Positions 24,763-32,107 of a stretch of DNA of 64,000 nucleotides are shown here, piece after piece. The DNA is taken from NCBI GenBank assembly GCA_027030245.1, contig JALVFE010000016.1, positions 186,001 through 250,000 on the forward strand, in the 5' to 3' direction. Each line of letters starts with the position of its first letter. Position 1 is the first letter of the stretch. Under the pieces are notes generated by a model. That model was given only the letters and a program-made list of their open reading frames with translations, had not been told where the DNA came from and searched no databases. The position numbers and the translations under genes were made by a program. The DNA comes from Melioribacteraceae bacterium. Lineage in GTDB: Bacteria; Bacteroidota; Ignavibacteria; Ignavibacteriales; Melioribacteraceae.

Positions 24763-25734
24763 ATGGGAAATAAAAAATACAAACACGTAAGCAAAGAACA
24801 AAGATATCAAATATCGGTTCTACTAAAAACTGGACACAAAGTTAGTTTTATATCAGAACAATTAAATTTGCATCGTTCAACTGTTTATAGGGAGATAAAA
24901 AGAAACTCAAAACCGCGAGGCAGCTACGATGCTAATTATGCTAACTGGTGTGCAGAAATAAGAAAAGAAAGATTTGCCAAAAACAGAAAATTAAATCAAG
25001 CAATGATTAGCTTTATTAGAGATAAACTGGAAAACGAACAATGGTCTCCCGAACAGATTATGGGTTATTGTAAAATGAAAAATATCCCAATGGTATCTCA
25101 CGAAAGAATATACCAATTTATTTATGAAGACAAGGCCCAAGGAGGTTCGTTATACAAACATCTAAGAACCGGTAATAAGAAATACAAGAAAAGATACGGA
25201 AAACATAAAAACAGAAGAGAAATTATAAAAAACAAAGTTTCAATTAATCAAAGACCGGAAATTATCAACAAAAAAGGACGTTTTGGTGATTGGGAAATTG
25301 ATACAATCATCGGTAAAAACCATAAAGGGGTTATTGTTACTGCTGTTGAAAGAAAATCCAATTTTCTTCTATTGAGAAAACTCAAATCAAAAAATGCTAA
25401 AGAATTAGCTAAGCAAACTATTCGTATGCTTGCTCCTTATAAAGATTTAGTCCACTCTATTACTTCCGACAATGGTTTGGAGTTTGCCGAACATGAATAT
25501 ATCGCTAAGAAGTTAAATGCTTCTTTCTATTTCGCTGATCCTTATTCTTCTTGGCAAAGAGGATTAAATGAATATTCTAATAAACTCATTAGACAATATA
25601 TCCCGAAAAATTCTGATTTTGACTCTTTTTCTGATAAGTATATTTTTGAAATTAATCTTAAACTAAATAACAGACCTAGAAAATTATTGAACTTTTCTAA
25701 TCCTAATGACATTTTCTTCAATAATTTTCCTTAA
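24763..25734 (+). CDS. IS30-family transposase
   Basis: This intact 323-residue transposase has an N-terminal helix-turn-helix (SKEQRYQISVLLKTGHKVSFISE, then LHRSTVYREIKRN). The catalytic DDE core has D180 in GDWEIDTIIG, D236 in SDNGLEF and E270 in RGLNEYSNKLIRQYIPK. The last two are spaced 33 residues apart, the DD(33)E pattern of IS30. All catalytic residues are present and the gene is bounded by matching terminal repeats, so the element may be active. No ribosome site is evident; the start lies just after a large self-complementary region that could limit translation. Confidence 0.93.
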   Translation: MGNKKYKHVSKEQRYQISVLLKTGHKVSFISEQLNLHRSTVYREIKRNSKPRGSYDANYANWCAEIRKERFAKNRKLNQAMISFIRDKLENEQWSPEQIMGYCKMKNIPMVSHERIYQFIYEDKAQGGSLYKHLRTGNKKYKKRYGKHKNRREIIKNKVSINQRPEIINKKGRFGDWEIDTIIGKNHKGVIVTAVERKSNFLLLRKLKSKNAKELAKQTIRMLAPYKDLVHSITSDNGLEFAEHEYIAKKLNASFYFADPYSSWQRGLNEYSNKLIRQYIPKNSDFDSFSDKYIFEINLKLNNRPRKLLNFSNPNDIFFNNFP

Positions 25735-26516: not shown

Positions 26517-27514
26517 TGAACGTATCCGTTCTCGGTGCAGGCAGTTTCGGAACTGCCTTGTCTATTATTTTATCATTAAACGGTCATCAAGTTACGCTGT
26601 GGGAACATAAACGTAATTACGCAAGAACACTTAGAAAAACCCGCGAAAATAAAATTTACTTACCCAAAATTCCTATTCCGAAAGAGATAAATATTACTTC
26701 TTCACTGGAAGAAGCGGTTGAAAATCAACACATGATTGTGCTTGCTATTCCTTCACAATATATCAGAAGCGTAATTCAAAAGTTTAAGAAATATAATTTT
26801 AAGAATGCAACTTTGGTCAGCGTTGCAAAAGGAATTGAAAAGGAAACTCATTTTACGGTTACGCAAATTATCAAAGATGAAATTCCGGACATATCAGCTT
26901 CTAACATTGGAGTTTTGTCCGGACCGAGTCACGCAGAAGAAGTTGCGAGAAAAATTCCTACTGCAATTGTTGCTGCTTCGGAAGACGAAGCAACGGCTCA
27001 AGAAATTCAAGCCGCTTTTATAACTTCATATTTACGGGTTTACTATTCGACAGATGTAATCGGCGCGGAATTGGGCGGTGCGCTTAAAAACGTAATTGCC
27101 ATCGGCGCGGGAATAATAGATGGTGCGAAATTCGGCGACAACACAAAAGCGGCAATAATGACCCGCGGAATTGCGGAAATCTCCCGCCTTGGCATTGCAA
27201 TGGGCGCACGACCCGAAACATTTGCCGGATTAACGGGAATAGGTGATTTAATTGTAACTTGTATGAGTAAACATAGTAGAAACCGTTATGTAGGTGAACA
27301 AATCGGTAAAGGCAAAAAGTTAAAATCGATTATTAAATCCATGTCCATGGTTGCCGAGGGCGTTGTTACCGCACGCTCTGCCTACGAACTTGCACAAAAA
27401 TACGAAATAGAAACCCCGATTATTAATGCCGTTTACGGCGCCCTTTATCTTGAGAAAGATCCGATTAAAGTTACTTACGAATTAATGTCCCGCGAGATGA
27501 AACCGGAAAACTAG
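26516..27514 (+). CDS. gpsA: NAD(P)-dependent glycerol-3-phosphate dehydrogenase
   Basis: This 332-residue enzyme reduces dihydroxyacetone phosphate to glycerol 3-phosphate for phospholipid synthesis. The dinucleotide-binding loop GAGSFGTALS is at the N-terminus. VSVAKGIEKET and SGPSHAEEVA form the substrate region, and GGALKNVIAIGAGIIDG with the catalytic lysine, GLTGIGDLIVTC and RNRYVGEQIG complete the C-terminal domain. It overlaps plsY by one base (TAATG), which supports translational coupling and a shared pathway. The gene ends at the border of the 2.4-kb repeat region. Confidence 0.96.
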   Translation: MNVSVLGAGSFGTALSIILSLNGHQVTLWEHKRNYARTLRKTRENKIYLPKIPIPKEINITSSLEEAVENQHMIVLAIPSQYIRSVIQKFKKYNFKNATLVSVAKGIEKETHFTVTQIIKDEIPDISASNIGVLSGPSHAEEVARKIPTAIVAASEDEATAQEIQAAFITSYLRVYYSTDVIGAELGGALKNVIAIGAGIIDGAKFGDNTKAAIMTRGIAEISRLGIAMGARPETFAGLTGIGDLIVTCMSKHSRNRYVGEQIGKGKKLKSIIKSMSMVAEGVVTARSAYELAQKYEIETPIINAVYGALYLEKDPIKVTYELMSREMKPEN

Positions 27515-27547
27515 CGATTTGTTTTGTGGCAACAATAGTGAAGAAAT

Positions 27548-27651
27548 GGGCATTTGTCAACGGTCATTGGTCAATCGTCAATGGTCATTTGTCAATCGTC
27601 ATTTGTCATTGGGAAATTGTCAATGGTCATTGGGATTTTGGAATTTGTTGT
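27548..27651. repeat. Degenerate short tandem repeats after gpsA
   Basis: A chain of roughly seven-base units of the form GTCAATG, GTCATTG, GTCATTT and GTCAATC continues for about 85 bp from 27555, followed by GGAATTTG repeats to about 27667. The units are imperfect and not a CRISPR. They look like an eroded microsatellite at the edge of the repeat hub. Confidence 0.6.
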
Positions 27652-27881
27652 TTGGAATTTGGAATTTATGTATTGTCATCCCGTCCGCCTGCGGCGAACA
27701 GCATGACATGTTATTCTAATGTTTTGGGACAGGATAATACAGAATAGAACTTGTCATCCCGAATTAATTTCGGGATCTAAAATAGACTCTCCATTTCACC
27801 TCATAACGCTGTATGGCGTAACATATTTAATAGAACATGCATTAAACCAAAAAACAAAACTCCGTTAGAAATGGTATAAAA

Positions 27882-28487
27882 TGTTCATTTCTTTTGTCTT
27901 GATACAAAAGAAACGAACCAAAGAAAAAATCAAGGCTGAAAACAATTTGCTAAAATTCTTAGCTACGTAGCTAAAAATAATGAACTCGTCCCGCTATATC
28001 TGCCGATATACCGGGACTCAGACAACATTATTTTTTTAACGCTACTCCGCACGAATTTTTTAACGCAAATTGTTTTAGGCCGTTTTGGTTCTAATACTTT
28101 CGGAACTGATGCGCTTTATTGGGATTTAGAACTTGGAATTTATGACTTGTCATTCTGTCCATCTTCGTCGGATTGAAGAGAACTCGTCATCCCGAACTGG
28201 TTTCGGGATCTAAAAAGAACTCATAATTTGAAATAGATGCTGATCCCGAGGGCATTCGGGATAGCATGACAGTATGATGAGCCTGTTCTAAAGAGAACTC
28301 TCTATTACATCCAGCAAACGCCGTAGGCGTGAAATGTTTATAGAACAAGCATTCTAACCTAAAACCAAAACTCCAAAGGAGTGACACATTTTATTATTTG
28401 GAACTTGGAATTTGTCATTTGGATTTTCTTTATTGTCTTCCGTCCGCTAACGAAACTGTCATCCCGAATTCATTTCGGGATCTAAAA
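27882..28487. repeat. Long direct repeat, copy A (606 bp)
   Basis: This segment matches copy B (28677-29317) almost base for base, with about a dozen substitutions. It lacks two 21-bp hairpin pieces that copy B has (junctions after 27935 and 28286) and has 7 extra bases at 28128-28134. The 35-bp length difference is exactly explained by 21+21-7. It contains the palindrome TTTCTTTTGT...ACAAAAGAAA at 27888-27913 and a large nested hairpin. Confidence 0.88.
27915..28091. other. Long nested hairpin in repeat copy A (structured element)
   Basis: Complementary arms nest inside one another: GAACCAAA (27915) with TTTGGTTC (28084); AAAACAATTTGC (27939) with GCAAATTGTTTT (28065); and a central GTCCCG-C-TATATC / GATATA-C-CGGGAC stem with a TGCC loop (27988-28017). 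A side hairpin TTAGCT-ACGT-AGCTAA lies at 27959-27974. This could be a structured RNA or a cruciform-forming mobile repeat; neither strand codes for a recognisable protein. Confidence 0.6.
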
Positions 28488-28676
28488 TGAATCAGTACTT
28501 TAACCCCCAAATAAACCCAAAAGGAATATCCGTTTTTTTGTTTGTATTTATTAATTCCACCACTTCGTGGGCGTTGGTAGCAATAAATTAGATGCTGAAA
28601 CAATTCGCCTGCGGCGAACAGCATGACAACTGAGGTGAAATGAAATGAATCTTTTATTACATATATTTAAACTATC

Positions 28677-29317
28677 TGTTCATTTCTTTTGTCTTGATAC
28701 AAAAGAAACGAACCAAAGAAAAAATCAAGGCCCCACTTCGTTGGGGGTAAACTGAAAACAATTTGCTAAAATTCTTAGCTTCGTAGCTAAAAATAATGAA
28801 CTCGTCCCGCTATATCTGCCGATATACCGGGACTCAAACAGCATTATTTTTTTAATGCTACTCCGCACGAATTTTTTAACGCAAATTGTTTTAGGCCGTT
28901 TTGGTTCTAATACTTTCGGAACTGCTGCGCTTTATTGGGATTTGGAATTTATGACTTGTCATTCTGTCCATCTTCGTCGGATTGAAGAGAACCCGTCATC
29001 CCGAACTGGTTTCGGGATCTAAAATGAACTCGTAATTTGAAATAGATGCTGATCCCGAGGGCATTCGGGATAGCATGACAGTATGATAAGCCTGTCATCC
29101 CGAATTCATTTCGGGATCTAAAGAGAACTCTCTATTACATCCAGCAAACGCCGTAGGCGTGAAATGTTTATAGAACAAGCATTCTAACCTAAAACCAAAA
29201 CTCCAAAGGAGTGACACATTTTATTATTTGGAACTTGGAATTTGTCATTTGGATTTTCTTTATTGTCTTCCGTCTGCTAACGAAACTGTCATCCCGAACT
29301 CGTTTCGGGATCTAAAA
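28677..29317. repeat. Long direct repeat, copy B (641 bp)
   Basis: This is the second copy of the long repeat, starting 795 bp after copy A in the same orientation. It includes a CCCCAC...GTTGGGG hairpin at 28731-28751 and a CATCCCGA...TCGGGA hairpin at 29096-29116, each 21 bp and each cleanly absent from copy A. The rest is about 97-98% identical by eye. Confidence 0.88.
28710..28907. other. Long nested hairpin in repeat copy B (structured element)
   Basis: The same nested arms as in copy A are kept: GAACCAAA (28710) with TTTGGTTC (28900), the AAAACAATTTGC/GCAAATTGTTTT pair, and the central GTCCCG...CGGGAC stem. The small side hairpin at 28775-28790 differs from copy A only in its loop (TCGT instead of ACGT). 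The extra 21-bp hairpin sits near the outer stem. Confidence 0.6.
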
Positions 29318-29932
29318 AGAACCCGCAATTTGAATTAGATGCTGAAATGAATTCAGCATGACATGTTTTTAGAACGGCATAAAAGTTAAAAAGACTCGTC
29401 ATCCCGAATTTATTTCGGGATCTAAAAAAACAATATTCAAATATCAAAAGAAACATCAACGGAATTGTTATCCTTTTTGATTTGTTTTTATTCCAATATT
29501 ATTCTGAAAAAATTCAGAATATAAATTTAGATGCTGATCCCGAAAGCTTTCGGGACAGCATGACAACAAGGAAGACTTGTCATCCCGAACTGGTTTGGGA
29601 TCTAAAAAGAACTCCGCGAGATGCTGAAATAATTCGCCTGCGGCGAACAGCATTACACGCATTCACGACAGCATGACATTATAAAGGAATTGGGATTTGA
29701 TTTTTTCCCTTTGTGTCCTTCGTGATTTTCCTTTGCGTTTTTTGTGGTTAAAAAGAAACCACAGATACCCACAGATTTAACACAGATTTTCACAGAATAA
29801 TTGAAATTTGGGATTTGTTAAAATTGAGTTTTGCCACTGCATGGTCGTGGTTACAGTGAAATTTCCCGCCACTTTCAAAACACTTTCAAATAAGAATTTC
29901 TTATATTTCAACCGAATAATTGGTTTTGTAAT

Positions 29933-32107
29933 ATGACATCCCTTTCCGATTCTATTCAATATATTAAATCGGTCGGACCTAAAAGAGCCGAATCGTTTAA
30001 GAAAATCGGGCTTGAAACGGTTAAGGATTTGTTGTTTTATTTCCCCACAAGATATTTGGACAGAACAAATCTTTTAACATCAGCCAAGGTAATGCAATAC
30101 GTGATTAACGGTTACGAGGGAGAAGTTACGGTAATCGGCGAAGTTGTAGATAAAGAACTGATGCGGTTCGGCAAAAAGCAAGTGCTAAAAGTTAAAATGC
30201 GGGATTCGGCAGGATTTTTCGAATGTGTTTGGTTCCAAGGAATAAAATATTTCAAAAACTATTTTAACACTCACGAAGTTTATGCAATATCCGCAAAACC
30301 TGTAATTACCCGTTACGGTCATTTACAGTTTGCTCATCCTGATTTTGACAGACTTGCCGACGCCGAATCAACGGAATTCCGTAATACAGGTAAAATCATT
30401 CCGTTTTACAGGTTACCAAAGGAATTAAAGTCCAAAAATATTGGCGAGTTGAGTCTAAGAAAAATTATTAACCTTGCCGTAGAGAATTACGCGCATCTAG
30501 CAAAAGAAACGCTCCCGCTAAGCTTGGTCAGAAAACATAAACTTCTCTCAATCGTCGAAGCGCTTAAAAACATTCACGACCCGGAAAACAAAAACAAATT
30601 ACGCTCCGCTATTAAAAGATTTAAATTCGAAGAATTGTTTTACCTTGAAATTTTAATCGCTTTACGCCGGACAACCCTAAAACGGAAGCTAAAAGGTTAT
30701 TCTTTCAAAATTCACACCAAACCGATTAAAAAATTTCTGGATTCCCTTCCGTTCGAATTAACCAAAGCACAATTGAAAGTTCTTTCCGAAATTAAAAAAG
30801 ACATGATGAGCGAACAACCGATGAACCGTTTGCTGCAAGGTGATGTTGGAAGCGGGAAAACAATTGTTGCCGTTATTGCTATGCTAATGGCAATAAGCGA
30901 CGGCGCGCAAGCGGCAATTATGGCGCCGACCGAAATTTTGGCTAACCAGCATTTTATTAACATCAACAGATTGCTAAAAGATTTAGGTATAAAAACCGGT
31001 TTGGTAATCGGCGGGCAAAAAAAATCGGAACGCAAACAAGTTTTAGATGATATTGCTTCGGGGGAAATTCAACTGATTGTAGGGACGCACGCTCTTTTCG
31101 AAGAATCGATAAAGTTTAAGAACTTAAGATTGGTGGTAATTGATGAGCAACACCGATTCGGTGTAATCCAACGCTCCAAATTGATTGAAAAAGGAATTGT
31201 TCCGGACGTGCTTGTAATGAGCGCCACGCCCATTCCCCGCACTTTAACGATGACAATTTACGGCGATCTCGATGTTTCGGTTATCGACGAAATGCCAGCT
31301 AACAGAAAAGAAATTAAAACCGTTTTAACCGGCGAGAAAAAACTTCCGGACATTTATAAATTCATTGTGGATAAAGCAAAAGAAGGTTACCAAACATTTA
31401 TTGTTTATCCTTTGGTTGAAGACTCCGAAAAACTTACGCTTAAAGCCGCTACAAGTCACTTTGAAGATTTACGGAAAACTTATCTGAGAGAAGTAAGAGT
31501 AGGAATGATTCACGGTAAAATGAATTGGCGCGATAAAGAAGAAGTAATGAAAAAATTTGCCGCAAAAGAATTCGACGTACTCATCTCAACAACAGTGATT
31601 GAAGTCGGCATCGATATTCCGGACGCCAACATATTGGTGATAAACGATGCATTTCAATTCGGACTTGCACAGCTCCATCAACTGCGCGGAAGAGTCGGCA
31701 GAAGCGGAAAACAAGCTTATTGCATTCTCGTTGCCAAAGATGAAATGGCAACCAGAATCAACAAATTTAATTTCAATTTCGAATACATGTCCAAATCGGA
31801 AATAGAAAAATATAAAACTTTAATAAGATTAAATTCAATGGTTAAATATTCAAACGGATTTGACATTGCCGAAGTCGATTTGAAATTGCGCGGACCGGGC
31901 GATATATTCGGATTGCAGCAAAGCGGCTTCCCCGATTTGAAATACGCCGATATAATTCAAGATTCGGAAATTTTGTATTCGGCAAAAGACGAAGCATTTA
32001 ACATTATCAAAAACGATCCGGATTTAATAAAAGCTGAAAATCAAATGATTAAAAACCACTTGCTTACCAACTACCGGCAAAATCTGAAATATTCTCAAGT
32101 GCCTTGA
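29933..32107 (+). CDS. recG: ATP-dependent DNA helicase RecG
   Basis: This 724-residue superfamily 2 helicase remodels stalled replication forks and Holliday junctions. The N-terminal wedge/OB domain (residues 1-240) contains YIKSVGPKRAESFKKIG and the FFECVWFQG strand. The helicase core has Walker A QGDVGSGKTIVA, then APTEILANQHF, VIDEQHRFGV (DEQH box), MSATPIPRTL, TVIEVGIDIPDA and QLRGRVGRS. The C-terminal RecG segment includes LKLRGPGDIFGLQQSG. The start at 29933 gives the family's usual N-terminus; no ribosome site is visible. It ends directly against a convergent gene, with the two stop codons adjacent and no space for a terminator. Confidence 0.96.
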   Translation: MTSLSDSIQYIKSVGPKRAESFKKIGLETVKDLLFYFPTRYLDRTNLLTSAKVMQYVINGYEGEVTVIGEVVDKELMRFGKKQVLKVKMRDSAGFFECVWFQGIKYFKNYFNTHEVYAISAKPVITRYGHLQFAHPDFDRLADAESTEFRNTGKIIPFYRLPKELKSKNIGELSLRKIINLAVENYAHLAKETLPLSLVRKHKLLSIVEALKNIHDPENKNKLRSAIKRFKFEELFYLEILIALRRTTLKRKLKGYSFKIHTKPIKKFLDSLPFELTKAQLKVLSEIKKDMMSEQPMNRLLQGDVGSGKTIVAVIAMLMAISDGAQAAIMAPTEILANQHFININRLLKDLGIKTGLVIGGQKKSERKQVLDDIASGEIQLIVGTHALFEESIKFKNLRLVVIDEQHRFGVIQRSKLIEKGIVPDVLVMSATPIPRTLTMTIYGDLDVSVIDEMPANRKEIKTVLTGEKKLPDIYKFIVDKAKEGYQTFIVYPLVEDSEKLTLKAATSHFEDLRKTYLREVRVGMIHGKMNWRDKEEVMKKFAAKEFDVLISTTVIEVGIDIPDANILVINDAFQFGLAQLHQLRGRVGRSGKQAYCILVAKDEMATRINKFNFNFEYMSKSEIEKYKTLIRLNSMVKYSNGFDIAEVDLKLRGPGDIFGLQQSGFPDLKYADIIQDSEILYSAKDEAFNIIKNDPDLIKAENQMIKNHLLTNYRQNLKYSQVP

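Follow-up and report, generated by a model that had tools for sequence, protein, structure and literature searches.

The palindromes that most closely resemble those of this locus are the CGTC-tagged REPs (Di Nocera et al. 2013, PMC3733652). The available part of that paper describes an unpaired end tag CGTC (often TGTC or CCTC), a stem of 8-9 bp starting from AT, a loop of 4-5 nt and tails which mostly, but not always, fit CCA. These REPs are present in many copies in Chlorobi, Bacteroidetes and other phyla and, as far as that part goes, are not flanked to transposase genes. The same part also covers the Rickettsia palindromic elements, small palindromes which are inserted as units (PMC3733652). 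As for enzymes acting on such sequences, TnpA-REP cleaves at a CT located 5' or 3' of the REP hairpin, according to the accessible sections of PMC8266576. In P. fluorescens, excision of REPIN doublets was reported from three reads and a fixed loss of such a doublet once, with no single-REP excision in the accessible sections of that study (PMC3116915).

The window analysed here is a stretch of 64,000 nucleotides (contig C16, positions 186001-250000) from a Melioribacteraceae genome (GCA_027030245.1; 3.8 Mb, 40 contigs, 97.7% complete). Two long repeats, A (27882-28487) and B (28677-29317), are located within the intergenic gap between gpsA, which ends at 27514, and recG, which starts at 29933. 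This island of ~2.4 kb is rich in repeats. The gpsA-recG gap of the same-genus genomes G003 and G002 is ~220-240 bp long and the island repeats were not seen in its printed sequence, so that among the three genomes compared the 2.4-kb island is found only here. A transposase-like gene at 24763-25734, with an HTH_38 and an rve domain just under threshold, resembles IS30 family members.

The global alignment of A and B showed 587 identical columns out of 599 (98.0%), 12 mismatches and exactly three gaps, which bears out the near-identity of 97-98% given in the earlier note. Its explanation of the 35-bp length difference was also correct: two 21-bp pieces present only in B, 28731-28751 (CCCCACTTCGTTGGGGGTAAA) and 29096-29116 (CATCCCGAATTCATTTCGGGA), and a 7-bp piece present only in A account for it wholly. 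The position 28128-28134 given there for the A-only piece is equivalent to the placement 28126-28132 in our alignment. The features of A and B that concern the first B-only piece and the A-only piece are the following.

27882-28092, plus strand: copy A of the foldback repeat LE, with hairpin P1, a pseudoknot and the long stem P2; sites 1 and 2 empty (covariance match, paralogue alignment, fold).
27888-27913, plus strand: hairpin P1 of LE A, TTTCTTTTGT-CTTGAT-ACAAAAGAAA, whose apical loop is site 2.
27929-27934, plus strand: ATCAAG, the pseudoknot partner of the P1 loop CTTGAT (pair-column covariation).
27935-27936, plus strand: empty site 1 in A, AAGG^CTGAAAAC, at the joint between P1 and P2 (A/B alignment).
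28126-28132, plus strand: 7-bp step present only in A, in a heptad-like tract 3' of LE (A/B alignment).
28677-28908, plus strand: LE copy B, holding the site-1 hairpin module (covariance match 28684-28899, 111.2 bits; fold z -6.40).
28731-28751, plus strand: site-1 hairpin module in B, CCCCACTTCGTTGGGG + GTAAA, then C (A/B alignment, paralogues).

The A-only 7 bp resemble one step in a heptad tract of the TTGGAATT type. Another heptad-like tract is seen at 27540-27660 (GTCATTTGTCAAT..., TTGGAATT). Both 21-bp pieces had been described as hairpins, and both are unusually stable: among 5000 random 21-mers of the same stretches, 0.5% were as stable as 28731-28751 and 0.14% as stable as 29096-29116. 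The former is, however, not a bare hairpin but a 16-bp hairpin with a GTAAA tail. The two pieces are different kinds of thing, a module in a joint of LE and the core of a REP, and their equal length is partly a coincidence since the modules in relatives have other lengths. The comparison showed that A and B are two copies of one composite repeat, consisting of LE and several REP-type palindromes. SNPs within LE also separate A and B, so they are not simply one copy with and without two hairpins.

LE is a foldback repeat of ~200 nt. LE A matched the covariance model R1 at 27889-28083 with 155.5 bits, being itself one of the 17 model-building sequences. Its left edge, TGTTCATTT, was set by paralogue alignment and its fold as ssDNA has z = -7.97. 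In the structural alignment of 17 sequences (the present one plus 16 that came from 10 relatives), 92.5% of the cells pair in the 53-pair structure including the pseudoknot, in comparison with 41-56% if the structure is slid by 1-3 columns. Two-sided changes were found in 32 pairs, as against 6-13 in the slid controls, and are the stronger point because the structure was derived from one aligned sequence and is somewhat favoured by this. The one variable pair of the pseudoknot (columns 16:42) is UA in 9 sequences, AU in 5 and CG in 3, and the other four pairs are invariant. Among 109 copies from 75 loci of relatives, both simple loop motifs are present in 57, a Watson-Crick pseudoknot pair being formed in 55 of them; this count covers those 57 copies, the other 52 having no simple loop motif and many of them another P1 type. 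The covariance model (E <= 0.001) detected LE in 47 of the 146 genomes searched, including this one with 18 matches. LE was thereby shown to be a strongly covarying, pseudoknotted foldback element widespread in the order Ignavibacteriales. Its arms co-vary almost solely through Watson-Crick changes: the non-Watson-Crick arm cells are 8 G.T and 14 A.C with two pairs left out (20 G.T if the pair 50:255 is included).

The possibility that LE is a known RNA was rejected since Rfam returned nothing near the gathering score, and no convincing match, for the window positions 27400-30000 and the loci L163, L118, L127 and L167. PLSDB searched in the distant mode gave no match on plasmids. The core motif CTTGATACAAAAG was absent from the literature searched and we recognised no published description of LE there. 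A sequence match in Erysipelotrichaceae was discarded as due to chance, no LE being visible in the part of that sequence inspected. Several LE copies lie within a few kb in some relatives, e.g. G069 and G105. At L163, L167 and L168, which represent three genera, LE copies are located near ORFs starting with MAI(L/V)(N/K)G(N/S)VIGN.

The 17 near-full LE copies of this genome have cores 95.5-100% identical outside the hairpins. At site 1, a hairpin with the same boundaries is present in five of them and cleanly absent from the other 12, and the LE copy of G002 has the same empty junction. We interpret the filling of site 1 as a probable gain because 12 of the 17 own copies and this one outgroup copy are empty, which is a majority-state argument. 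In line with this, just 3 of the 109 copies of relatives have an enlarged P1-P2 joint and 10 an enlarged P1 loop. Site 2, in the loop of P1, holds a different 21-bp hairpin (TCCCGATAAATCGGGACAAGC) in two of the 17 copies. The site-1 pattern has four matches in the whole genome, all at site 1 of LE (the slightly different hairpin of L024 falls outside the pattern). The site-2 core CCCGATAAATCGGG was found four times, each time in an LE copy, two of these copies being partial. Two other palindromes that fit the site-2 pattern, on C1 and C26, have another sequence and no such tail. The copies L016 and L024 have identical cores, as have L015b and L028, yet within each pair the filling of site 1 differs, which means that the filling is independent of the LE background. 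Four-gamete combinations were found among LE SNPs and between SNPs and hairpins; either the LE copies recombine or the sites mutate repeatedly. As SNPs are shuffled among the copies, recombination can spread the filled and empty states without fresh insertion.

Similar filled and empty sites were found in the LE copies of relatives. Loops or joints enlarged by at least 10 nt over the median were counted in the 109 copies at the P1 loop (10), the P1-P2 joint (3), the 3' joints (3 and 4) and the tip (34), and most of them hold hairpins; these counts are underestimates because some modules fall just outside the model matches. The indels between copies were filtered to 127 entries (score of at least 17, at least 3 partners, 14-60 bp), from which the events named here were picked by eye; 41 tip entries were set aside and many of the other 86 were alignment artefacts without a hairpin. 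Clean pairs of filled and empty sites were seen at the position in the P1 loop equivalent to site 2 (G020, G084, G143), at a 3' joint (G097 with two copies, G105), at another joint (G069, G035), at the tip (G069, G084) and at the P1-P2 joint (G024, G069). The module of G035, TCCCGATGAATCGGGACAAGC, differs by one base from the site-2 hairpin of our genome, yet it is located at another joint. In G057, four LE contexts share one 19-nt hairpin (CCCCGATGAGGACATCGGG), which lies in or just past P1 and accompanies two P1 types. Filled and empty sites such as the earlier note proposed to look for in related strains were found, although in paralogous copies and other species rather than in strains of the host species.

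The modules usually begin with CCC or TCCC and end with CAGG, CAAG or TAAA right before a C, their placement often being ambiguous by 1 bp; exceptions to the tail rule are L172 of G113 and L225:120 of G084. An automatic rule (a stem of at least 5 pairs directly upstream of the tail tetramer) found distinct tagged modules in 12 of 36 genomes (CAGG 12, TAAA 6, CAAG 3). Other tetramers also ranked high after hairpins, namely CAAA (29) and CAGA (10), both of which are the LE tip's own, and TTAA (7), and CAAG alone, with its three distinct modules, is no commoner there than several others. A hairpin was present upstream of 18 of the 83 tagged tails and of 124 of the 4523 other tetramers before C, a post hoc comparison in which the tip tetramers CAAA and CAGA were left out and the tails had been picked from these very data. 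Twelve longer stretches with LE contain additional tailed hairpins, mostly beside LE; some lie elsewhere, chiefly in G096. Some modules of relatives have replaced bases of LE, the right flank being CGCCAG or CTCCAG and not CAAAAG, so not every module is a simple insertion. Judged from the alignments, modules are present or absent as units at loops and joints of LE in several genomes, and these stem-loops, with their short tail and the C after it, seem to have been added to LE at a later stage.

The modules might instead be permanent components of ancient LE subtypes that are passed down together with the element and do not move. Similar TAAACTCCAG-tailed hairpins in the P1 region of several LE copies, e.g. 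in G105 and G056, would fit such inheritance. The same tail types are, however, found at different joints, and the pairs of copies with identical cores and different filling already disfavour this explanation, which we consider very unlikely.

The second B-only piece belongs to a different family, and the palindromes around it in the island are listed here.

27675-27707, plus strand: chimeric 'double-foot' palindrome with a left arm of the ATCCCG type and a right arm of the GCTG type, both feet present.
28186-28212, plus strand: TGTC/CGTC-type REP in A; a nested REP comes after it in inverted orientation, and the tails of the two face each other (B counterpart 28995-29021, plus strand).
28234-28270, minus strand: nested REP in A, an ATCCCGA hairpin inside an ATGCT/AGCAT hairpin (in B 29043-29079).
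28286-28287, plus strand: REP without its hairpin in A, GT^TCTAAA, both unit flanks kept.
28319-28334, plus strand: CGCCGTAGGCGTGAAA palindrome (in B 29149-29164), also found beside a Y1_Tnp gene on C10.
28370-28383, plus strand: ACTCCAAAGGAGTG palindrome (in B 29200-29213); the related ACTCCTACGGAGT lies beside the same Y1_Tnp gene.
29094-29120, plus strand: intact REP in B, GTCATCCCGAATTCATTTCGGGATCTA; the piece missing from A is 29096-29116.

The piece 29096-29116 is indeed the core of a recurrent palindrome, as had been proposed: the pattern CATCCCGA(N4-12)TCGGGATCTA has 81 exact matches in the genome and its reversed control has none. The layout of the unit is (C/T)GTC + ATCCCGAA + 5 nt + TTCGGGAT + CTA. 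A wider pattern gave 109 matches here and 12, 0 and 0 in three same-genus genomes, which means that the family is much larger in this genome. The search required GTCAT, and in the 115 units listed GTC is preceded by T (98 units) or by C (17 units). The ATCCCGAA stem is present in 62 of these units, all 62 having a 5-nt loop; the tail is CTA in 55 and CCA in one of the 62, and CTA in 83 and CCA in three of the 115.

The REP without a hairpin in A stands alone. Of the 64 TCTAAA-(A/G)-N-GAAC tails in 35 stretches, 59 follow GGGA or GGAA and four follow slightly changed REP ends, whereas the remaining one, in A, follows CCTGT without a hairpin. The pattern GTYCTAAARNGAAC matches the genome at two places, one of them in A and the other in a degenerate REP on C15; its reversed control matches once. 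Because A keeps both flanks of the unit and a full REP is present ahead of the same TCTAAAGAGAACT at L025, the polarity is that of a loss, and we read the sequence as a clean loss of the REP hairpin from A at the foot of its stem, the only such case found in the 35 stretches and with the genome-wide pattern. LE or REP matches lie at the ends of C5, C8, C12, C13, C16, C23, C29, C30, C32 and C36 or within ~2 kb of them; assembly thus tends to break there, and the repeat copy numbers may be too low. Assembly errors in the repeats may also be a source of differences.

We compared 34 stretches of this genome bearing repeats or Y1_Tnp genes and 4 kb of the window all against all, counting clean indels of at least 8 bp with flanks 85% identical. 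Of 380 pairwise indels 144 were 21 bp long, but after merging by place only 11 of 106 sites were. Eight of these 11 sites come from just three hairpins, namely that of LE site 1 in five copies, that of LE site 2 in two and that of the REP in one. The other 95 sites range from 8 to 102 bp, 15 of them being multiples of 7 bp, and some indels alter merely a REP loop or spacer. The exact junction homology is 0-1 bp at 76 of the 106 sites, 0-2 bp at 85 and at least 3 bp at 21, so that the 0-1 bp found at the junctions of the three hairpins is not special. The suggestion that small palindromes are inserted or removed as units is partly borne out, well for the LE modules and through a single event for the REPs, while most other nearby indels vary in length. 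Varied lengths and ends, which the earlier note would take as a sign of ordinary slippage, are found in much of the island, although the ends of the three hairpins recur exactly.

The same data could be taken to mean that ordinary slippage and unequal recombination explain everything, the hairpins being old LE alleles which recombination has spread and the absence of the REP hairpin a chance deletion. The 95 sites of other lengths, the 15 multiples of 7 among them, the 21 sites with at least 3 bp of homology, the hairpin junctions resembling the majority and the recombination apparent from SNP shuffling all agree with this. Slippage, however, explains neither the origin of the modules, nor their positions in unpaired joints with recurrent tails in several genomes, nor the occurrence of one hairpin at different LE positions in G057. 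It is disfavoured as the sole cause by the module tails and joint positions alone, not by junction homology, and we regard it as quite improbable.

The explanation we favour, with a probability of about 0.45, is structure-driven template switching or hairpin skipping on a single strand, combined with recombination among copies. The change would take place in the single-stranded state, for which replication is the likeliest occasion. A hairpin would be lost if it were skipped in its folded form and gained if the polymerase switched templates at a structured joint and copied a hairpin from another LE copy or joint; recombination among copies may then shuffle the filled and empty states. We count in its favour the exact boundaries, identical cores both filled and empty, the shuffling, the modules located in joints, their tails, the hairpin of G057, and the restriction of the site-1 pattern to LE in this genome. 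All this evidence comes from comparing copies. The arms of LE would be expected to change almost only in a Watson-Crick manner if they corrected each other by templated copying, and the near absence of non-Watson-Crick arm cells, together with the chimeric REP at 27675-27707, is a supporting hint for template copying. The data do not call for a dedicated enzyme, although one may take part. On the other hand, the recurrence of certain tails hints at units with a specific sequence, something that would not follow from template switching by itself, and we count against it the unremarkable frequency of CAAG after hairpins, the tail exceptions, the base-replacing modules and the TTTA-tagged hairpins at L239 in G035.

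The latter hairpins were found in a survey of Y1_Tnp genes, which bears on a further possibility, namely that a RAYT/TnpA-REP-like Y1 (HUH) transposase moves LE modules as a single-stranded tag and hairpin. The genome contains five Y1_Tnp genes. The one on C10 (L045, C10:2548-2892) has CGCCGTAGGCGTGAAA, ACTCCTACGGAGT and CCCCGGAGGGGTGAAAC palindromes in its flanks. Of these, the CGCCGTAGGCGTGAAA and ACTCCTACGGAGT types recur in islands, A and B included; this gene thus has tagged palindromes of its own which are also found in islands. The module layout of tag and hairpin, with a recurrent tail before C, would also suit such an enzyme: read on the opposite strand it becomes G|CCTG-, G|CTTG- or G|TTTA-hairpin, comparable to GTAG-tagged REPs. 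Moreover, GTCCCGATAGGGAC+TAAAC occurs twice in the 400 nt upstream of the Y1_Tnp gene at L239 (G035:C1:738450, minus strand), and G035 also has a module in its LE. The cleavage by TnpA-REP (PMC8266576) and the excision of REPIN doublets (PMC3116915), as described in the available parts of these papers, provide published precedents. Against this, L239 is the only one of 30 Y1_Tnp loci of relatives with LE-module tails within 400 nt, the rest having other palindromes or none (30 loci fetched of 37 matches, from 10 relatives; the gene was not properly located in L243 and L245), and hairpins with such tails were found in the printed 400-nt flanks of none of the five own genes. The site-1 pattern matches LE alone in this genome, and the Pseudomonas study, in its available part, has no single-REP excision (PMC3116915). 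We find transposition of this kind possible but somewhat unlikely. No transposase or autonomous partner of LE was identified in this analysis. As side observations, the hairpin tail at L239 is the same as that of the LE site-1 module, and at L044 two near-identical Y1_Tnp genes (C32:106542 and 110114) lie ~3.6 kb apart with AACCGTTTCAACGGTT hairpins upstream.

A bolder proposal is that the Ignavibacteriales possess in LE a mobile single-strand element with a pseudoknot, and that tail-tagged modules dock in its loops and joints and are moved between joints and copies by a dedicated process. We hold this to be unlikely. If our reading of the hairpins is right, small palindromes would be seen to enter and leave set positions in folded DNA, their ends being exact, and the spread of REP-like hairpins without an obvious transposase would become directly testable.

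A comparison with known systems separates the two parts of the composite repeat. The REPs of this genome share with the CGTC-tagged REPs, as described in the available part of PMC3733652, a TGTC/CGTC tag, an 8-bp stem starting with AT, a 5-nt loop and many copies, but their tail is CTA instead of CCA. In addition, the unit in A and B is paired, tails facing, with a nested REP of the ATGCT type, and one hairpin has been cleanly lost, by our reading. As in CGTC-tagged REPs, no GTCAT REP was found in the printed 400-nt flanks of the five own Y1_Tnp genes; three lie 0.6-1.2 kb from the C10 gene. The REP part is a known kind of palindrome with one neat loss. The modules resemble REPINs and TnpA-REP (RAYT) systems in being tagged hairpins in a genome with Y1_Tnp genes, one of which is flanked by island palindromes, but differ from them in that LE-module tails lie near just one of the 30 loci of relatives. 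They are analogous to the Rickettsia palindromic elements as small palindromes behaving as units (PMC3733652, available part), whereas the LE modules are located within a structured repeat and the site-1 pattern is found nowhere else in the genome. LE itself is short, multi-copy and foldback, like MITEs and other foldback intergenic repeats, but unlike these it has a conserved pseudoknot, order-wide compensatory changes and hairpin modules in its joints. The LE part, whose pseudoknot covaries and which 47 of the 146 genomes contain, looks new, the stretches compared with Rfam having given no convincing match.
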